Of a DNA stretch of 64,000 nt, positions 24,760 to 46,337 are shown piece after piece; within the stretch, counting starts at the first letter, position 1, and the number at the start of each line of letters is the position of its first letter. A model generated the notes under the pieces. It was not told the DNA's origin, made no database searches, and saw only the letters and a program-made list of their open reading frames with translations. The position numbers were made by a program, and so were the translations under genes. This DNA comes from Agromyces protaetiae (GTDB lineage: Bacteria > Actinomycetota > Actinomycetes > Actinomycetales > Microbacteriaceae), in contig NZ_CP133018.1 in the NCBI RefSeq assembly GCF_030866785.1, positions 2,356,001-2,420,000 on the forward strand, written 5' to 3'.

Positions 24760-26251
24760 CAGCCTCACCTCCGAGCATCGCCTGCACCGCGTGATGGAAC
24801 CGCCGGCCTCGGTCGGCGTAGTCGGCGAACTGATCCATCGACGCGGCCGCCGGAGCGAGGAGCACGGTGTCCCCCTCTTCCGCCACGGTCGCCGCGAGGG
24901 CGACCGCTTCGGGCATCACCTGCTCAGTGTCGTCCGCGGTCACCTCGAACAGCGGCAGCCCGGGCGCGTGTCGGCCGAACGCGGCCACGAGCGCCGCACG
25001 GTCGCGACCGATGACCACCGCGGCGCGCAACCGCCCGACGTGCGCGGCGACGAGCGAGTCGGCGTCGACACCCTTGAGCAGGCCGCCGACGATCCATACG
25101 ACGCGCCCGAAGGCGGTCAGCGACGCCTGCGCGGCGTGCGGATTGGTCGCCTTCGAGTCGTCGATCCAACGGATGCCTCGGGCGAGCGCCACGGTCTCGA
25201 TGCGATGCGCGTCCAGACGGAAGTCGAGGAGCGCGTCGTGGATCACGCCCACCGGGACCCCGAACGACCGCGCGAGCGCCGACGCCGCGAGGATGTTCTG
25301 CACGATGTGCGGCGCTGCGAGGCCGCGCGGCTCGAGCTCGCCGAGGGTCGTGATCTCGAGGGCGGCCGTGTGCCGCTCCTCGAGGAACGCGCGATCGCAG
25401 AGGATGCCCTCGACGACGCCGAAGTCGCTCGGCCCCGGCGTGTCGAGGCCGAAGCCGATCGCGCGCGCGCCCTCTTCGACCTCGGCGTCCTCGACCATGC
25501 CGCGCGTGACCTCGTCAGCCCGGTTGTAGACGCACGCCACGCGCGTGTTCGCGTAGACCTTGGCCTTCGCCGCACGGTACGCCTCGAACGAGCCGTGCCA
25601 GTCGAGGTGGTCGTCGGCAAGATTGAGGCACACGCTCGACCACGGGTGGAGCGCGCCGGGCCCGGTGGTGCGCAGATGGTGCAGTTGGTAGCTCGAGAGC
25701 TCGACCACGAGCACGTCGAAGCCGCCCGGGTCGCGCACGGCATCGAGCACCGGCACGCCGATGTTGCCGCAGGGCGCTGCGCGCAGACCGTTCGCCGCGA
25801 GCAGGGTCGCGGTGAGCTGCACCGTGGTCGTCTTGCCGTTCGTGCCGGTGACGAGGATCCAGTCGGCGGGGCGCACCTTGTCGCGCACCCGCCAGGCGAG
25901 CTCGATGTCGCCCCACACGGCGATGCCACCCGCGGCCGCCCACTCGAGGACCGCGTGGTCGGGATGGAACCCAGGGGACGCGATCACGAGCTCCGGCGCG
26001 AAGTCGACGAGCGCCGGCGGCGCCGTCTCGAGCGGGTCGACGACGAATCCGGCACCGATCACATCGAGGATCCGTGCACGCTCGTCGTCGGGCTTGGACG
26101 CGAGCACGAGCACGTCGGCGCCGAGCTCGGTGAGCGTGTCGGCGACCGCGAACCCGGTGACCCCGAGGCCGAGCACCGCGACGCGGAGTCCGCTCCAGTC
26201 GGCGTGCCAGCTGGTGAGCCCGTCGAGGCGGGTGGGCGAGACATCCGTCAC
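24716..26251 (-). CDS. murD: UDP-N-acetylmuramoylalanine--D-glutamate ligase
   Basis: Adds D-glutamate to the muropeptide precursor (511 aa). Present are [20 protein letters not shown], the ATP loop [81 protein letters not shown] and [14 protein letters not shown] 26251 overlaps the mraY stop by 4 nt (GTGA) as elsewhere in the cluster; ATG 26263 is in frame and possible. The body is a little longer than usual (about 450-500), mainly in the C-terminal domain. Confidence 0.95.
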
Positions 26252-27345
26252 TGCTGGAGCCATTCGAAGTAGAAGCTGCCGACGCCGGCGGCCACGAGGA
26301 GCCCGCCGATGATCCAGAAGCGCACGACGATGGTGACCTCCGCCCACCCCTTCAGCTCGAAGTGATGGTGGATCGGGCTCATGAGGAAGATACGTTTGCC
26401 GCGCGTGAGCTTGAAGTACGCCCGCTGCACGATCACCGAGCCGGTCTCGATCACGAACAGACCGCCGATGAGCAGCAGCAGCAGCTCGGTGCGGCTGAGG
26501 ATCGCGAGCGCCGCGAGCGCGCCGCCCAGCGCGAGCGACCCGGTGTCGCCCATGTAGATGTGCGCGGGATTGGTGTTCCACCAGAGGAAGCCGATGAGTC
26601 CACCCACGATCGCCGTCGCGACGATCGCGAGGTCCAGCGGATCGCGCACGTCATAGCAGCGGTACGCGTCGGCCGGGTCGAGGCTCTCGCTGAAGCAGGA
26701 CTGATTGAACTGCCAGAAGCCGATGATCACGAACGAGCCGATCGCGAGGATCGAGGCGCCGGCCGCGAGTCCGTCGAGGCCGTCCGTCACGTTCACCGCG
26801 TTGGACGCCGCCGCCGTCAGCAGGCAGATCCAGATCACGTACAGCACGATGCCGACGACCGTGCCGAACACCATGAAATCGAGCGGCAGGTCGCGGATGA
26901 ACGAGATCTTCGTCGTGGCAGGCGTCGCGTTCTGCGCGTTCGGGAACTGCAGGGCGAGCAGCGCGAACGCGCCGGCGACGACGACCTGGCCGCCGACCTT
27001 CGCCCAGCCACCGAGTCCGAGGCTCTGCTTCTTTCGGGTCTTCAGGAAATCGTCGACGAACCCGACGATGCCGAGGCCGACCATCATGAACAGCACGAGC
27101 AGTCCGGAGGGCGTCGGCGGCTCGTTGCTCACCAGCAGCGTCGCCACGAAATAGCCGAAGAGCGCACCGAGGATGAAGATGATGCCGCCCATCGTGGGCG
27201 TGCCGCGCTTCACGTGGTGCGACTGCGGGCCGTCATCGCGGATGAACTGCCCCCACCCGATGCGACGGAACAGCCGAATGAACAGCGGCGTCAGGAACAG
27301 CGTGAAGGCGAGCGACAACGCTCCGGCGGTCAGCAGTGCTCTCAC
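26248..27345 (-). CDS. mraY: Phospho-N-acetylmuramoyl-pentapeptide transferase
   Basis: Integral membrane enzyme that forms lipid I from undecaprenyl phosphate (365 aa, about ten helices). It begins [20 protein letters not shown]. The catalytic aspartates lie in VGFVDDFLK and [12 protein letters not shown], and the C-terminal HHH motif in [14 protein letters not shown]. The GTG start at 27345 overlaps the stop of the preceding 23-codon reading frame (GTGA), whose GGGGAG serves as ribosome binding site 7 nt before the start. Confidence 0.97.
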
Positions 27346-27413
27346 TCGGACACTCCCCGTCGGTCGCTGAGGCAGCCGAGCCCGCGGATCATCAGTGCTG
27401 CTGCGCCGCTCAT
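27342..27413 (-). CDS. Mini-ORF 2 between murF and mraY (23 codons)
   Basis: A 23-residue reading frame beginning [13 protein letters not shown] and ending SDRRGVSE. Its ATG overlaps the stop of mini-ORF 1 (ATGA) and its stop overlaps the mraY GTG (GTGA), so ribosomes could pass from murF to mraY without a break. Its last codons supply GGGGAG as mraY's ribosome binding site. It is a near copy of mini-ORF 1. No known family; the peptide has no clear membrane segment and may matter only as a translated linker. Confidence 0.6.
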
Positions 27414-27481
27414 GCGGACACTCCCCGTCGGTCGCTGAGGCGGCCGAGCCGGCGGATCATCAGTGCTGCTGCGCCGCTCAT
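27346..27481. repeat. Tandem duplication, 2 x 68 bp, at the murF/mraY junction
   Basis: Two direct copies (27414-27481 and 27346-27413) differ at only about three positions. Each copy encodes one mini-ORF. The end of the unit (CTCaGCGACCGACgGGGAG on the minus strand) matches the murF 3' end with about two differences. The start of the unit (GCACTGaTGAtC then CGCCGG) resembles the first codons of mraY. The unit therefore looks like a copy of the murF/mraY boundary. Confidence 0.85.
27410..27481 (-). CDS. Mini-ORF 1 between murF and mraY (23 codons)
   Basis: A 23-residue reading frame beginning [13 protein letters not shown] and ending SDRRGVSA. Its ATG overlaps the murF stop (ATGA), with GGGAG of the murF 3' end 10 nt upstream, and its stop overlaps the start of mini-ORF 2. 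It is a tandem copy of mini-ORF 2, with two internal base changes and a different last codon. I do not recognise the peptide. The exact fit of both frames into the chain of 4-nt overlaps is why they are reported as translated. Confidence 0.6.
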
Positions 27482-28890
27482 GCGAACCATTCTCCCAGTC
27501 GGTCGCCGAGGTGGCGGAGCCCCGCCGAGTTCGACGATTTGACGAGCACGGTGTCTCCGGGCTGGAGGGAGGCCAGGACGAGATCGTACGCCTCGTCGGC
27601 GCTCTCCACGAACGCCGACTCGCCGGCCCACGAGCCCTCGTTGATCGCCGAGATGTGCAGTCGCCTGGCGCCCTGCCCCACCACGATGAGCTGCGAGATG
27701 CCGAGCCGCACCGCCAGCAGCCCGATGCGGTCGTGCTCCTCACCGGAGAACTCGCCGAGCTCGCTCATCTCGCCGAGCACCGCCACGGTGCGGGCGCCCG
27801 GGCGCTGCACCTGGGCGAGGGTCTTCAGCGCCGCGGCCATCGAGTCGGGGCTCGCATTGTACGCGTCGTTGATGATGCTGATGTCGTCGCGGCCGCCCAT
27901 GAGCTGCATGCGCCAGCGTTCGGCGAGGGTCACCTGTTCGAGCGCTTCGGCGACGGATGCCACGGGCACCCCGAGTTCGATGGCGGCCGCGGTGGCGGCG
28001 AGGGCGTTCATGACGTGGTGCTCGCCGAGCACGCCGAACCGCACGCGCGCGGTCTCCCCGCTCGGCACGACGATCGTGAAGTCCGTGCCGCGCGCGTGCG
28101 CGACGAGATCGATCGCCCGCACATCGGCGGCGTCACCGAGGCCGAACCAGACCACCCGGGCGGGAGTGAGCCCGGCCATCGGCACCACACGGGGGTCGTC
28201 CGCGTTCAGGATCGCGACCCCACCGGGAAGGAGGTCGGTGACCATCTCGGACTTCGCGCGAACGGTCTGCTCGATGCCGCCGAACTCGCCGGCGTGCGCG
28301 AGTCCGACCTTCAGCACGATCCCGATGTCGGGCCGGGCCATGCGGACCAGGCGAGCGATCTCGCCGACCGCGGACGCTCCCATCTCGGCGACGAGGAACT
28401 CGGTGTCCTCGGTCAGCTCGAGCATCGTGATCGGGCCGCCGACCTCGTTGTTGAAGGACTTGCGCGAGGCGACGGTCGGGCCGGCGTGCTCGAGGATCGT
28501 GCGCAGCAGGTTCTTCGTCGTGGTCTTGCCGTTCGATCCCGTGACCCCGATCACGCGAAGCCGGCCGAGGGCGCGCACGCGGGCGACCACCTCGGTCGCG
28601 AGGGCGCCGAGCGCGTCGACCGAGTCCGGGACGACGATCTGCGCGACGGGCAGCTCGAGCGCCCGCTCGACGACGAGCAGTGCCGCACCCCGTTCCGCCG
28701 CGGACGGCGCGAACCGGTGACCGTCGTCGAACTCGCCGCGCTTGGCGAAGAACACCCCACCGGGTTCGATCTCGCGTGAGTCGGTCGTGACGGCGCCGTC
28801 GACGACCGTCTCGGGCGTGGCATCCGCCCCGCCGATGCGGAGCTCGCCGCCGACCGCCGCAGCGATCTCGGCCAGAGTGAGCGCGATCAT
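27478..28890 (-). CDS. murF: UDP-MurNAc-tripeptide D-alanyl-D-alanine ligase
   Basis: Adds D-Ala-D-Ala to the precursor (470 aa). It starts MIALTLAEIAAAVGGELRIG. Motifs are GGVFFAKRGEFDDGHRF, the ATP loop GVTGSNGKTTTKNLLRTIL, TEFLVAEMGASAVGEIA, ILNADDPRV, NALAATAAAIELGV and IINDAYNASPDSMAAAL. The ATG overlaps the murE stop by 4 nt (ATGA). Its last codons encode [14 protein letters not shown], and the DNA for this stretch recurs, diverged, in the downstream tandem repeat. Confidence 0.96.
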   Translation of the reverse strand: MIALTLAEIAAAVGGELRIGGADATPETVVDGAVTTDSREIEPGGVFFAKRGEFDDGHRFAPSAAERGAALLVVERALELPVAQIVVPDSVDALGALATEVVARVRALGRLRVIGVTGSNGKTTTKNLLRTILEHAGPTVASRKSFNNEVGGPITMLELTEDTEFLVAEMGASAVGEIARLVRMARPDIGIVLKVGLAHAGEFGGIEQTVRAKSEMVTDLLPGGVAILNADDPRVVPMAGLTPARVVWFGLGDAADVRAIDLVAHARGTDFTIVVPSGETARVRFGVLGEHHVMNALAATAAAIELGVPVASVAEALEQVTLAERWRMQLMGGRDDISIINDAYNASPDSMAAALKTLAQVQRPGARTVAVLGEMSELGEFSGEEHDRIGLLAVRLGISQLIVVGQGARRLHISAINEGSWAGESAFVESADEAYDLVLASLQPGDTVLVKSSNSAGLRHLGDRLGEWFA

Positions 28891-30440
28891 GCGGGCCACC
28901 CCGCCTCGCGGAGGGCCAACCGGGCATCGTCTCGCGCCGAGTAGGGGATCTTGACTCCGTTCACCTCGTGGTAGTCCTCGTGGCCGGGCCCCGCGTACAG
29001 GATGACGTCACCCTCCGAGGCGAGCGCGAGTGCGGCGCGGAACGCGGCGCGGGGGTCGGCGACCTCGTGGATCTCGCGGTCGGGCACGGCCTCGCGCGCG
29101 CCCGCGATCAACGCGGCTCGGATCGCCGCGGGGTCCTCGGTGCGCGGGTGGAAGTCGGTCACCACGACCACGTCGGCCCCGCGCGCGGCGATCGCGCCCA
29201 TCTCGGCGCGTTTGGTCGTGTCGCGGTCGCCGTCGGCGCCGAACAGCATGATGATCCGCCCCACGGCGAACCGCCGGATGGCGGCGAGCGTCTGCAGGAA
29301 CGCATCGGGGCTGTGACCGTAGTCGACGTAGACCACCGGACCGTGGTCGCCCGACACGCGCTCGGCACGCCCGGGGATGTACGCACGGATGCCGCCGTCA
29401 CGACGGAGCGCCTCGGAGATCCGCTCGAACTCCACGCCCGCCTCGACGAGCAAAACGATGGCGAGGGCCGCGTTCGCGGCCATGTACCGCCCGAGCAACG
29501 GGACCCGCGTCGCGACGAGGCGCCCGTCGCGCGCCGCGAGGGTGAAATCGGTGTGCGTCGCCGTCTCGGCGCCGAAGTCCACGCGCCAGTCGGCGTCGAC
29601 GTCGGGCACGGTCGAGATCGTCGTCACCGGGATCGCCGCCTCGGCGGCCAGCCGGCGTCCCCACTCGGAGTCGACGGTCACCACGCCGCGCCGGGCCCGG
29701 TCGGGCTGGAACAGGTCGAGCTTGGCCTCGAAGTAGGCCTCCATCGACGCGTAGTCGTCGAGGTGATCGTGCGTGAGGTTCGTGAAGCCCGCCACGTCGA
29801 ACACGAGTCCGTCGACGCGGTGGCGCGACAGCGCCTGAGCCGACACCTCGACGCCGACCGCGCGCGCGCCCAGTTCGCGCCCGCGCGCGAGCAACGCGTG
29901 CAGCTCGCTGGCCTCTGGCGTGGTGAGCGCACTCGTGACCGCCTCGTCGGCGATGCGCCGCTCGGCCGTCGAGGTGAGCCCGGCGACCTCACCGAGCTGC
30001 TGCAGGATGCCGAAGAGCAGGTAGACGACGCTCGTCTTGCCATTCGTGCCCGTGACCGCGATCAGCGTCGCCCGGTTCTCGTCGGTCCGGTACACCCAGC
30101 TCGCGACACCGCCGAGTGCCGCGCGAGCGTCGTCGACCACCAGCACCGGCAGACCGGGCGCGGCGTCAGCTGCGCGCGCGGCGCCGACCGCATCCGTGAG
30201 CACGGCGACGGCGCCGCGCTCCACGGCCGCTGCGGCGAAGTCCGCGCCGTGCGCGTGGCGCCCGGGGACGCCCACGTAGAGGTCGCCCGGCTGCACCGCC
30301 CCCGAGGCGAGGCTCACGCCCGTCACCTCGAGGCCGTCGAGGTCGCCACGGACCTCGAGCGCGAACGCGTCGGCGAGGCCGCGGAGCGATCGCGGACTCG
30401 GATGCTGCGGCCGAAGGGCAGCCGAAGACGATCCGGTCAC
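28887..30440 (-). CDS. murE: UDP-N-acetylmuramoyl-tripeptide synthetase MurE
   Basis: Adds the third, diamino residue to the muropeptide (517 aa). Present are DLYVGVPGRHAHGADFA, the ATP loop [52 protein letters not shown] and LFGADGDRDTTKRAEMG. The specificity loop reads VVVTDFHPRTEDPAAI: at the place where meso-DAP enzymes have DNPR, this one has FHPR. Group B peptidoglycans of Microbacteriaceae carry diaminobutyrate, ornithine, lysine or homoserine instead of DAP, so the substrate is probably not DAP (inference). The GTG start is 13 nt after the ftsI stop. Confidence 0.95.
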   Translation of the reverse strand: MTGSSSAALRPQHPSPRSLRGLADAFALEVRGDLDGLEVTGVSLASGAVQPGDLYVGVPGRHAHGADFAAAAVERGAVAVLTDAVGAARAADAAPGLPVLVVDDARAALGGVASWVYRTDENRATLIAVTGTNGKTSVVYLLFGILQQLGEVAGLTSTAERRIADEAVTSALTTPEASELHALLARGRELGARAVGVEVSAQALSRHRVDGLVFDVAGFTNLTHDHLDDYASMEAYFEAKLDLFQPDRARRGVVTVDSEWGRRLAAEAAIPVTTISTVPDVDADWRVDFGAETATHTDFTLAARDGRLVATRVPLLGRYMAANAALAIVLLVEAGVEFERISEALRRDGGIRAYIPGRAERVSGDHGPVVYVDYGHSPDAFLQTLAAIRRFAVGRIIMLFGADGDRDTTKRAEMGAIAARGADVVVVTDFHPRTEDPAAIRAALIAGAREAVPDREIHEVADPRAAFRAALALASEGDVILYAGPGHEDYHEVNGVKIPYSARDDARLALREAGWPA

Positions 30441-45697: not shown

Positions 45698-45712
45698 ATC
45701 GGCGATCGCACC

Positions 45713-45838
45713 GGGTGCGGCGGTCACATCGGGTGCGGCGGTCACACCGGGCACCGCGGTCACACCGGGTGCGGCGGTCACACCGGGCGCGGCCAGCACA
45801 CTGTGCGCGGTGAACACACCGAGTGCGGCGATCACATC
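45713..45838. repeat. 18-bp minisatellite, seven units
   Basis: Seven tandem 18-bp units with consensus close to GGGTGCGGCGGTCACACC, at 45713, 45731, 45749, 45767, 45785, 45803 and 45821. A partial eighth unit reaches the def stop codon, and a partial unit precedes the array. The first units are nearly identical; units 5 and 6 are the most diverged. 18 bp keeps reading frames open on both strands: the minus strand gives a VTAAPG-type hexapeptide repeat, but no gene is evident. Confidence 0.9.
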
Positions 45839-45845
45839 GGGTGCG

Positions 45846-46337
45846 TCAGAACCAGTCGGACTCGCGGACCTGACGCATCGCGACGCGGCGTTCGTCCTTC
45901 TCCAGCCGGTCGAGGTACAGCAGACCGTCGAGATGGTCGACCTCGTGCTGCAGCGCCTGCGCGAGCACGCCGGTGCCCGAGACCTCGACGGGGCGGCCGT
46001 CGAGGTCGATGCCGCGGACGCGGGCGAACGGATGCCTCGGGGTCTTGTGCCAGTTCTCCGGCACCGAGAGGCAACCTTCGTCGATCTTCTCGGGCTCGCC
46101 GCCGAGCTCGACGATCTCCGGGTTGATCACGTACCCGACCGCACCGTCGACGTTGTAGCTGAAGACGCGCAGGTTCACACCGATCTGGGGCGCGGCCACG
46201 CCGGCGCGCCCGGGCACCCGCACGCTGTCGAGCAGGTCGGTCACCAGTGCGCGCACACGGTCGTCGACCTCGCCGACGGGTGTCGAGACCGTCTTCAGGA
46301 CGGGGTCGCCGAAGAGTCGGATCGGGCGTTCCGGCAC
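45846..46337 (-). CDS. def: Peptide deformylase
   Basis: Metalloenzyme that removes the formyl group from nascent protein N-termini (163 aa). The three family motifs are present: GVAAPQIGVN (motif 1, GxGxAAxQ form), EGCLSVPE (motif 2, metal Cys) and QHEVDHLDG (motif 3, HExxH). It ends RESDWF. It lies 13 nt downstream of pyc, so it is probably cotranscribed. The stop codon borders directly on the minisatellite, so unit changes would alter its 3' UTR. Confidence 0.96.
   Translation of the reverse strand: MPERPIRLFGDPVLKTVSTPVGEVDDRVRALVTDLLDSVRVPGRAGVAAPQIGVNLRVFSYNVDGAVGYVINPEIVELGGEPEKIDEGCLSVPENWHKTPRHPFARVRGIDLDGRPVEVSGTGVLAQALQHEVDHLDGLLYLDRLEKDERRVAMRQVRESDWF

Follow-up and report, generated by a model that had tools for sequence, protein, structure and literature searches.

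Tandem mini-cistrons between murF and mraY in Agromyces as candidate relays of translational coupling

The comparisons reported here suggest that the short open reading frames found between murF and mraY in a minority of Agromyces species are relay cistrons resembling the MIRUs of mycobacteria, that they arose when the coupling junction was duplicated in tandem, and that their open frames are maintained to preserve the coupling of mraY; we put the probability of this reading at roughly two in three.

Results

The murF-mraY junction of Agromyces protaetiae

The stretch of DNA analysed here (64,000 nt, hereafter the window) is part of a complete 4.18-Mb genome. Pfam assignments along its minus strand give the gene order PBP transpeptidase, Mur ligase, murF, mraY, Mur ligase, ftsW and glycosyltransferase 28, and from the usual order we take the Mur ligase before murF to be murE, the one after mraY to be murD and the glycosyltransferase to be murG. 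Between murF and mraY lie two mini-ORFs, each of 23 sense codons plus a stop (72 nt), and the four frames of the chain are joined by overlaps of 4 nt each, ATGA, ATGA and GTGA (Table 1), as the first-pass annotation had described. It had also called the two mini-ORFs nearly identical, which their 94% identity at a period of 68 bears out, and the GGGGAG that it noted 7 nt 5' of the next start is found ahead of both the mini-ORF 2 and the mraY starts. The Shine-Dalgarno (SD) element of mini-ORF 1 is a GGGAG at 10 nt. What the first-pass annotation did not contain are a partial third copy of the repeat within the 3' end of murF, a likeness of the unit tails to the murF tail, and the recurrence of the arrangement across the genus. 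The end of murF in the window reads ...CGACTGGGAGAATGGTTCGC followed by ATGA, and its last ~40 nt, which resemble the unit tails, contain both an SD element and the ATGA overlap. With a score of 276 (vs 183 for the next), the array ranks first in the window in Tandem Repeats Finder, and neither of its two peptides matches a family in Pfam or NCBIfam with E up to 1. An 18-nt tandem repeat of 8.1 copies occurs elsewhere in the window (45700-45845). It lies just 3' of the stop of a peptide deformylase ORF on the minus strand (45846-46337) and is followed in turn by a long inverted repeat, a possible terminator.

Table 1. Features of the murF-mraY junction in window coordinates
Feature	Position	Strand	Remarks
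murF	27478..28899	-	TIGR01143 (NCBIfam), E 5e-115; sequence
Partial third repeat copy within murF 3' end	27492..27522	-	84% identity to unit over 31 nt
Mini-ORF 1	27410..27481	-	23 codons; ATG start; 4-nt overlap with murF stop
GGGGAG within mini-ORF 1	27421..27426	-	7 nt 5' of mini-ORF 2 start
Mini-ORF 2	27342..27413	-	23 codons; ATG overlaps mini-ORF 1 stop; TGA overlaps mraY GTG
GGGGAG within mini-ORF 2	27353..27358	-	7 nt 5' of mraY start
mraY	26248..27345	-	Last in chain; GTG start at 27345; TIGR00445 (NCBIfam), E 2e-94; Pfam

Inserts recur within Agromyces

All 60 Agromyces genomes searched, one per species, possess mraY, and the murF-mraY junction was examined in each. An insert of 58-244 nt is present in 15 of them, and 45 have the plain 4-nt murF-mraY overlap, G033 being judged from a contig-end piece (L144, -4). 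Nine genomes carry one mini-ORF (L014, L015, L017, L018, L020, L024, L123, L127 and L141), three carry two (the window, L002, with L010 and L137) and one carries four (L005), and in two others the units are fused, two or three in one ORF (L028, 52 codons; L004, 78 codons). Copy number, which the first-pass annotation had proposed to compare among relatives, does vary, from 1 to 4 units between Agromyces species. Because L001 duplicates L002 and L034 duplicates L024, 17 rows represent 15 genomes; the junction count leaves out the fragments of G033 as well as an additional mraY copy each in G034 (L136) and G042 (L114), which have no murF match in front. In all 15 inserts the chain runs from the murF stop to the mraY start, its links all being 4-nt overlaps, and the comparison agrees with the earlier proposal that ribosomes could translate the chain throughout, the predicted path to mraY being intact in 15 of 15 insert-bearing genomes.

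Several further observations concern the junction in this genus. Pieces of mraY lie at the contig ends in contigs C5, C7 and C8 of G033, which suggests assembly breaks and not real fragments. The last ~20 nt of murF differ little at the DNA level across Agromyces, even at third codon positions, which would fit a role as the SD for mraY. In the two genomes where a second mraY occurs with no murF match in front (L136, L114), its GTGAGAGCACT start is immediately preceded by a short version of the SD box of the murF tail (GACTGGGAG.ATGGTTCTC), as if the SD box travels together with mraY. One gene further on, all 29 Agromyces loci examined have an in-frame start for murD placed at -4 relative to the mraY stop, a control that picks the in-frame start nearest -4 and shows the existence of such a start, no more.

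Outside the genus we found no insert in any of 87 loci from other members of the family (74 genera), where murF and mraY lie -16 to 0 nt apart; these belong to a set of 88 family loci of which one is Agromyces (L147), the other 87 representing 87 of the 162 non-Agromyces genomes with a match. The 75 judgeable loci among 78 named non-Agromyces loci likewise have no insert (distance -7 to +3 nt), and the three unjudged ones have either no murF match (L054, L063) or a truncated one (L089); the genomes of this set may overlap with those of the 87-locus set. In 14 of the 88 family loci (L148, L149, L156, L161 and ten more) the extrapolated mraY start falls 7 nt inside murF, whose end there is often GTGGTAG, an alternative overlap solution. 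Every family locus that could be judged has murF and mraY at coupling distance. An insert may therefore be tolerable only as long as ribosomes reach the mraY start, and a copy of the junction of suitable length, in supplying an SD, a start and a stop, would pass this demand.

Period, SD elements and overlaps are kept

The 21 open frames all have a period of 2 mod 3 (62, 68, 77, 65, 104 and 38 nt, with fused forms of 155 and 233), which is the class that -4 overlaps demand. Six unit lengths would all be 2 mod 3 by chance with a probability of (1/3)^6, about 0.001, if they were independent, although they are not fully so because many of the units look homologous. Aligned units differ in length by 15, 9, 3, 27, 12 and 24 nt, and across Agromyces the mini-ORFs range from 13 to 78 codons. 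A GGAG stands 5' of all 36 starts, at 10 nt in 33 of them, at 7 nt for mini-ORF 2 and mraY of the window, and as a GGAGG at 9 nt in one. The openness of the frames themselves is weak evidence of coding. In-frame stops number 0 in 575 codons, vs 41 in 554 in the +1 frame and 5 in 554 in the +2 frame, and 21 of the 41 stops of the +1 frame are the TGA built into the start overlap. Dinucleotide shuffles of the two window units stay open in frame at rates of 0.81 and 0.74 (0.40-0.86 per unit overall), and under substitution-only drift all seven 77-nt units remain open with P 0.42. Openness being too weak, our argument is built on the period, the SD elements and the overlaps.

These same features bear on the alternative of a neutral tandem repeat, a passive accident in which ribosomes would start mraY de novo from the SD of that gene, the mini-ORFs would be dispensable and the frame would reflect chance and shared descent. 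GC-rich DNA often yields open frames, an SD lies directly 5' of mraY in each species, and 45 of 60 Agromyces species do without the insert, all of which such an accident would accommodate. However, 2 mod 3 holds for every one of the six unit lengths, 15 of 15 chains are intact, and even where +1 insertions have fused neighbouring units (L004 and L028) the single ORF still ends on the mraY overlap; we therefore consider the neutral explanation unlikely. Stops or frameshifts within the units had been named at the outset as evidence against translation of the chain, and frameshifts do occur, as the +1 insertions of these two species, but forms that break the path are absent from the 15 insert-bearing genomes.

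The peptides show no sign of constraint

We did not detect purifying selection on the mini-ORF peptide: pN/pS was 0.87 for the 77-nt class (codons 2-17, 28 pairs) and 1.46 for the 62-nt class (codons 2-12, 10 pairs), vs 0.13 for a 300-nt part of murF from the seven species with the 77-nt class (21 pairs). For the 62-nt set, units 2 and 3 of L005 were omitted as copies of unit 1, and the identical L005 unit 4 and L014 unit were both retained. In shifted frames the ratio was 1.67 (+1) and 0.91 (+2) vs 0.87 in the true frame, and with the +2 value so near the true-frame value pN/pS fails to single out the true frame. Amino-acid changes in the units thus run near the synonymous rate, and the expectation that synonymous changes would dominate was not borne out. 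It appears from these alignments that peptide content drifts freely and the stop-start signals are retained.

The first-pass annotation had also raised the possibility that the peptides act themselves near MraY, and more generally small functional peptides acting on or near MraY or MurF could be pictured from the kept frame and the good SD sites. This is contradicted by the pN/pS values near or above 1, by the spread of lengths from 13 to 78 codons and by the lack of any family match, and the peptides are missing from 45 of 60 congeners; we rejected peptide function on the first three of these grounds and hold it to be extremely improbable.

Unit tails resemble the tail of murF

Each of the 21 units has a tail similar to that of its own murF (z 2.4-11.7). 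The own murF tail is the closest among 62 murF tails for 5 of the 21 units only, and for the two units of the window 5 and 6 murF tails of other species are closer than the own one, so that the tails there would be old or diverged copies. The clearest picture of how units are gained is offered by L005, with four units, and L014, with one, which are sisters on the tree. Unit 4 of L005 is the same as the sole L014 unit, and L005 units 1-3 are mutually identical and, leaving aside the final 4 nt, end in exactly the same 37 nt as the L005 murF tail. The new L005 units thus look like hybrids of an existing head and a murF tail, as expected from a tandem duplication that spans the murF/unit junction. 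As to the heads, a derivation from mraY is partly supported by the sequences: local likeness to the mraY 5' end, in P values uncorrected for multiple tests, reached 0.003 and 0.005 for the window units and a borderline 0.047-0.065 for six of seven 62-nt units (0.46 for the seventh), but the 77-nt class gave no support (P 0.30-1.0), nor did global alignment of unit heads to mraY (z -1.3 to 2.2).

On a tree of murF and mraY DNA from which the insert and its flanks were excluded (61 rows), insert presence changed at least 9 times, 6 of the changes being forced by the starred branches. G033 was left out of both trees, its junction being broken at contig ends, and G017 was left out of the second for its long branch. 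The insert-bearing rows formed one side of a branch in 0% of 200 bootstrap trees, and the inserts cluster more on the tree than they do under shuffling of the labels, where 1 of 500 was as low. A loss-only count comes to one gain and 14 losses. The 62-nt units of separate clades are alike, for which shared ancestry or an exchange of the locus is the probable source.

A mobile element of the MIRU type, inserted at the ATGA, would have the same anatomy as that given for MIRUs in a 2025 review (PMC12548453). Within its own genome, though, the unit was found at one place only. Among the best 15 candidates per genome in 60 genomes, the full-length 81-nt L018 unit matched only at murF-mraY, as did the 72-nt window unit at E below 1e-5, a search in which diverged copies could be missed, and weaker unit matches elsewhere extend up to 68 nt at E 1e-4 or worse. 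With no full-length copies elsewhere among these candidates, tails like the local gene and new units that look like local hybrids, we judge a mobile element to be very unlikely. A dispersed repeat was rejected on the same search, none being found elsewhere among the best 15 candidates per genome.

Control of mraY by an RNA structure, a riboswitch, a promoter or a terminator within the insert is conceivable in principle, and the mycobacterial senX3-regX3 array shows promoter activity according to PMC4213456. The insert nevertheless folds more weakly than its shuffles (z +1.79). No consensus promoter (sigma-70 type only) or terminator was found in the insert, and Rfam gave no match at gathering score, with one chance-level match inside mraY. 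The RNA element, the promoter and the terminator were all rejected, the fold, consensus and Rfam scans having given nothing, and we hold control of this kind to be barely credible.

Discussion

Taken together, the retained junction signals, the drifting peptide and the murF-like tails suggest a relay built from the coupling junction itself. The duplicated piece would be the murF tail with its SD element and overlapping stop/start, and every copy would come with an SD, a start and a stop of its own. A ribosome ending murF would restart on the ATGA, translate some 20 codons, end and restart again, and so reach mraY. Because a broken unit would uncouple mraY, selection would retain the period, the SD elements and the overlaps and leave the peptide free to drift, and the relay would in this way explain how the three are kept alongside a free peptide. 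Further duplication would add units, and deletion between direct repeats would remove them, restoring the plain 4-nt overlap. The interpretation offered in the first-pass annotation is, as a whole, partly supported.

A stronger version of the relay holds that the number of stop/restart steps is itself selected and sets the dosage of MraY relative to MurF. In its favour are the changes of insert presence on the tree, at least 9 in number, the range of 1 to 4 units, and the report, in PMC2734929, that a longer mycobacterial repeat before fpg1, in an arrangement other than a -4 chain, accompanied more fpg1 mRNA. Copy-number drift would however give an identical pattern, and the efficiencies of overlap coupling given in PMC6728339 and PMC12548453 differ by gene pair, so that the direction of a dosage effect is unpredictable; we treat this version as a possibility, though a doubtful one. 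If the array is indeed self-templated and reversible, it could, rather speculatively and in our view improbably, serve an essential cell-wall operon as an evolvable dial of MraY dosage which may differ between strains; on that reading each tolerated copy must leave the ribosome path open, and the array has been gained or lost at least 9 times.

Whichever of these applies, the locus presents a MIRU-like arrangement in another actinobacterial family, with a birth that may be partly readable in the murF-like tails and in the pair of sister species with four units and one. It also amounts to an experiment made by nature, on the number of stop/restart steps that an operon will bear and on the question of whether small ORFs of the kind seen in ribosome profiling can be pure relays. 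For annotation it carries a warning that short ORFs with a good SD and a kept frame need not encode working proteins. Among the matches listed in our literature search, whose coverage left subscription journals mostly outside, there was no paper on the Agromyces murF-mraY insert.

Of the known systems, MIRUs are the closest in anatomy. As described in the 2025 review (PMC12548453), they appear mobile, insert at start codons and contain an internal ORF coupled at -4 nt; they occupy 41 places in M. tuberculosis H37Rv according to PMC2734929, and the senX3-regX3 array holds 77-bp and 53-bp units in different strains, as given in PMC4213456. Judged by that description of MIRUs (PMC12548453), the Agromyces units are similar in being short, in lying by a gene start and in having an ORF coupled at -4 nt. 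The Agromyces copies are tandem and vary in number between species (1-4), similar to MIRU copies, which differ between strains (PMC4213456), and the 77- and 53-bp lengths from the same source are both 2 mod 3, as are the Agromyces units. However, MIRUs are scattered (PMC2734929), whereas the Agromyces units were found at one site with tails like the local murF, and the hosts belong to different bacterial families. Since the units were not found dispersed and their tails are like the local gene, we have not filed them as MIRUs.

A second comparison is with termination-reinitiation pairs, for which PMC6728339 reports coupling at overlaps, demonstrated with reporters, with variable help from the SD. 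The likeness lies in the 4-nt overlap and in an SD placed within the upstream ORF (PMC6728339 and PMC12548453), and in Agromyces the overlap is found at every link of the 15 chains and an SD before 36 of 36 starts. The cases in these sources are gene pairs, whereas Agromyces has one to four drifting mini-cistrons in between. Finally, the Agromyces units recall the short ORFs used for ribosome delivery, as in uORF delivery and bicistronic design, for which PMC12548453 proposes no role but that of driving the translation of the gene coupled to them; unlike those described there, the Agromyces ORFs sit inside an operon, 3' of a full gene, and are multiplied.
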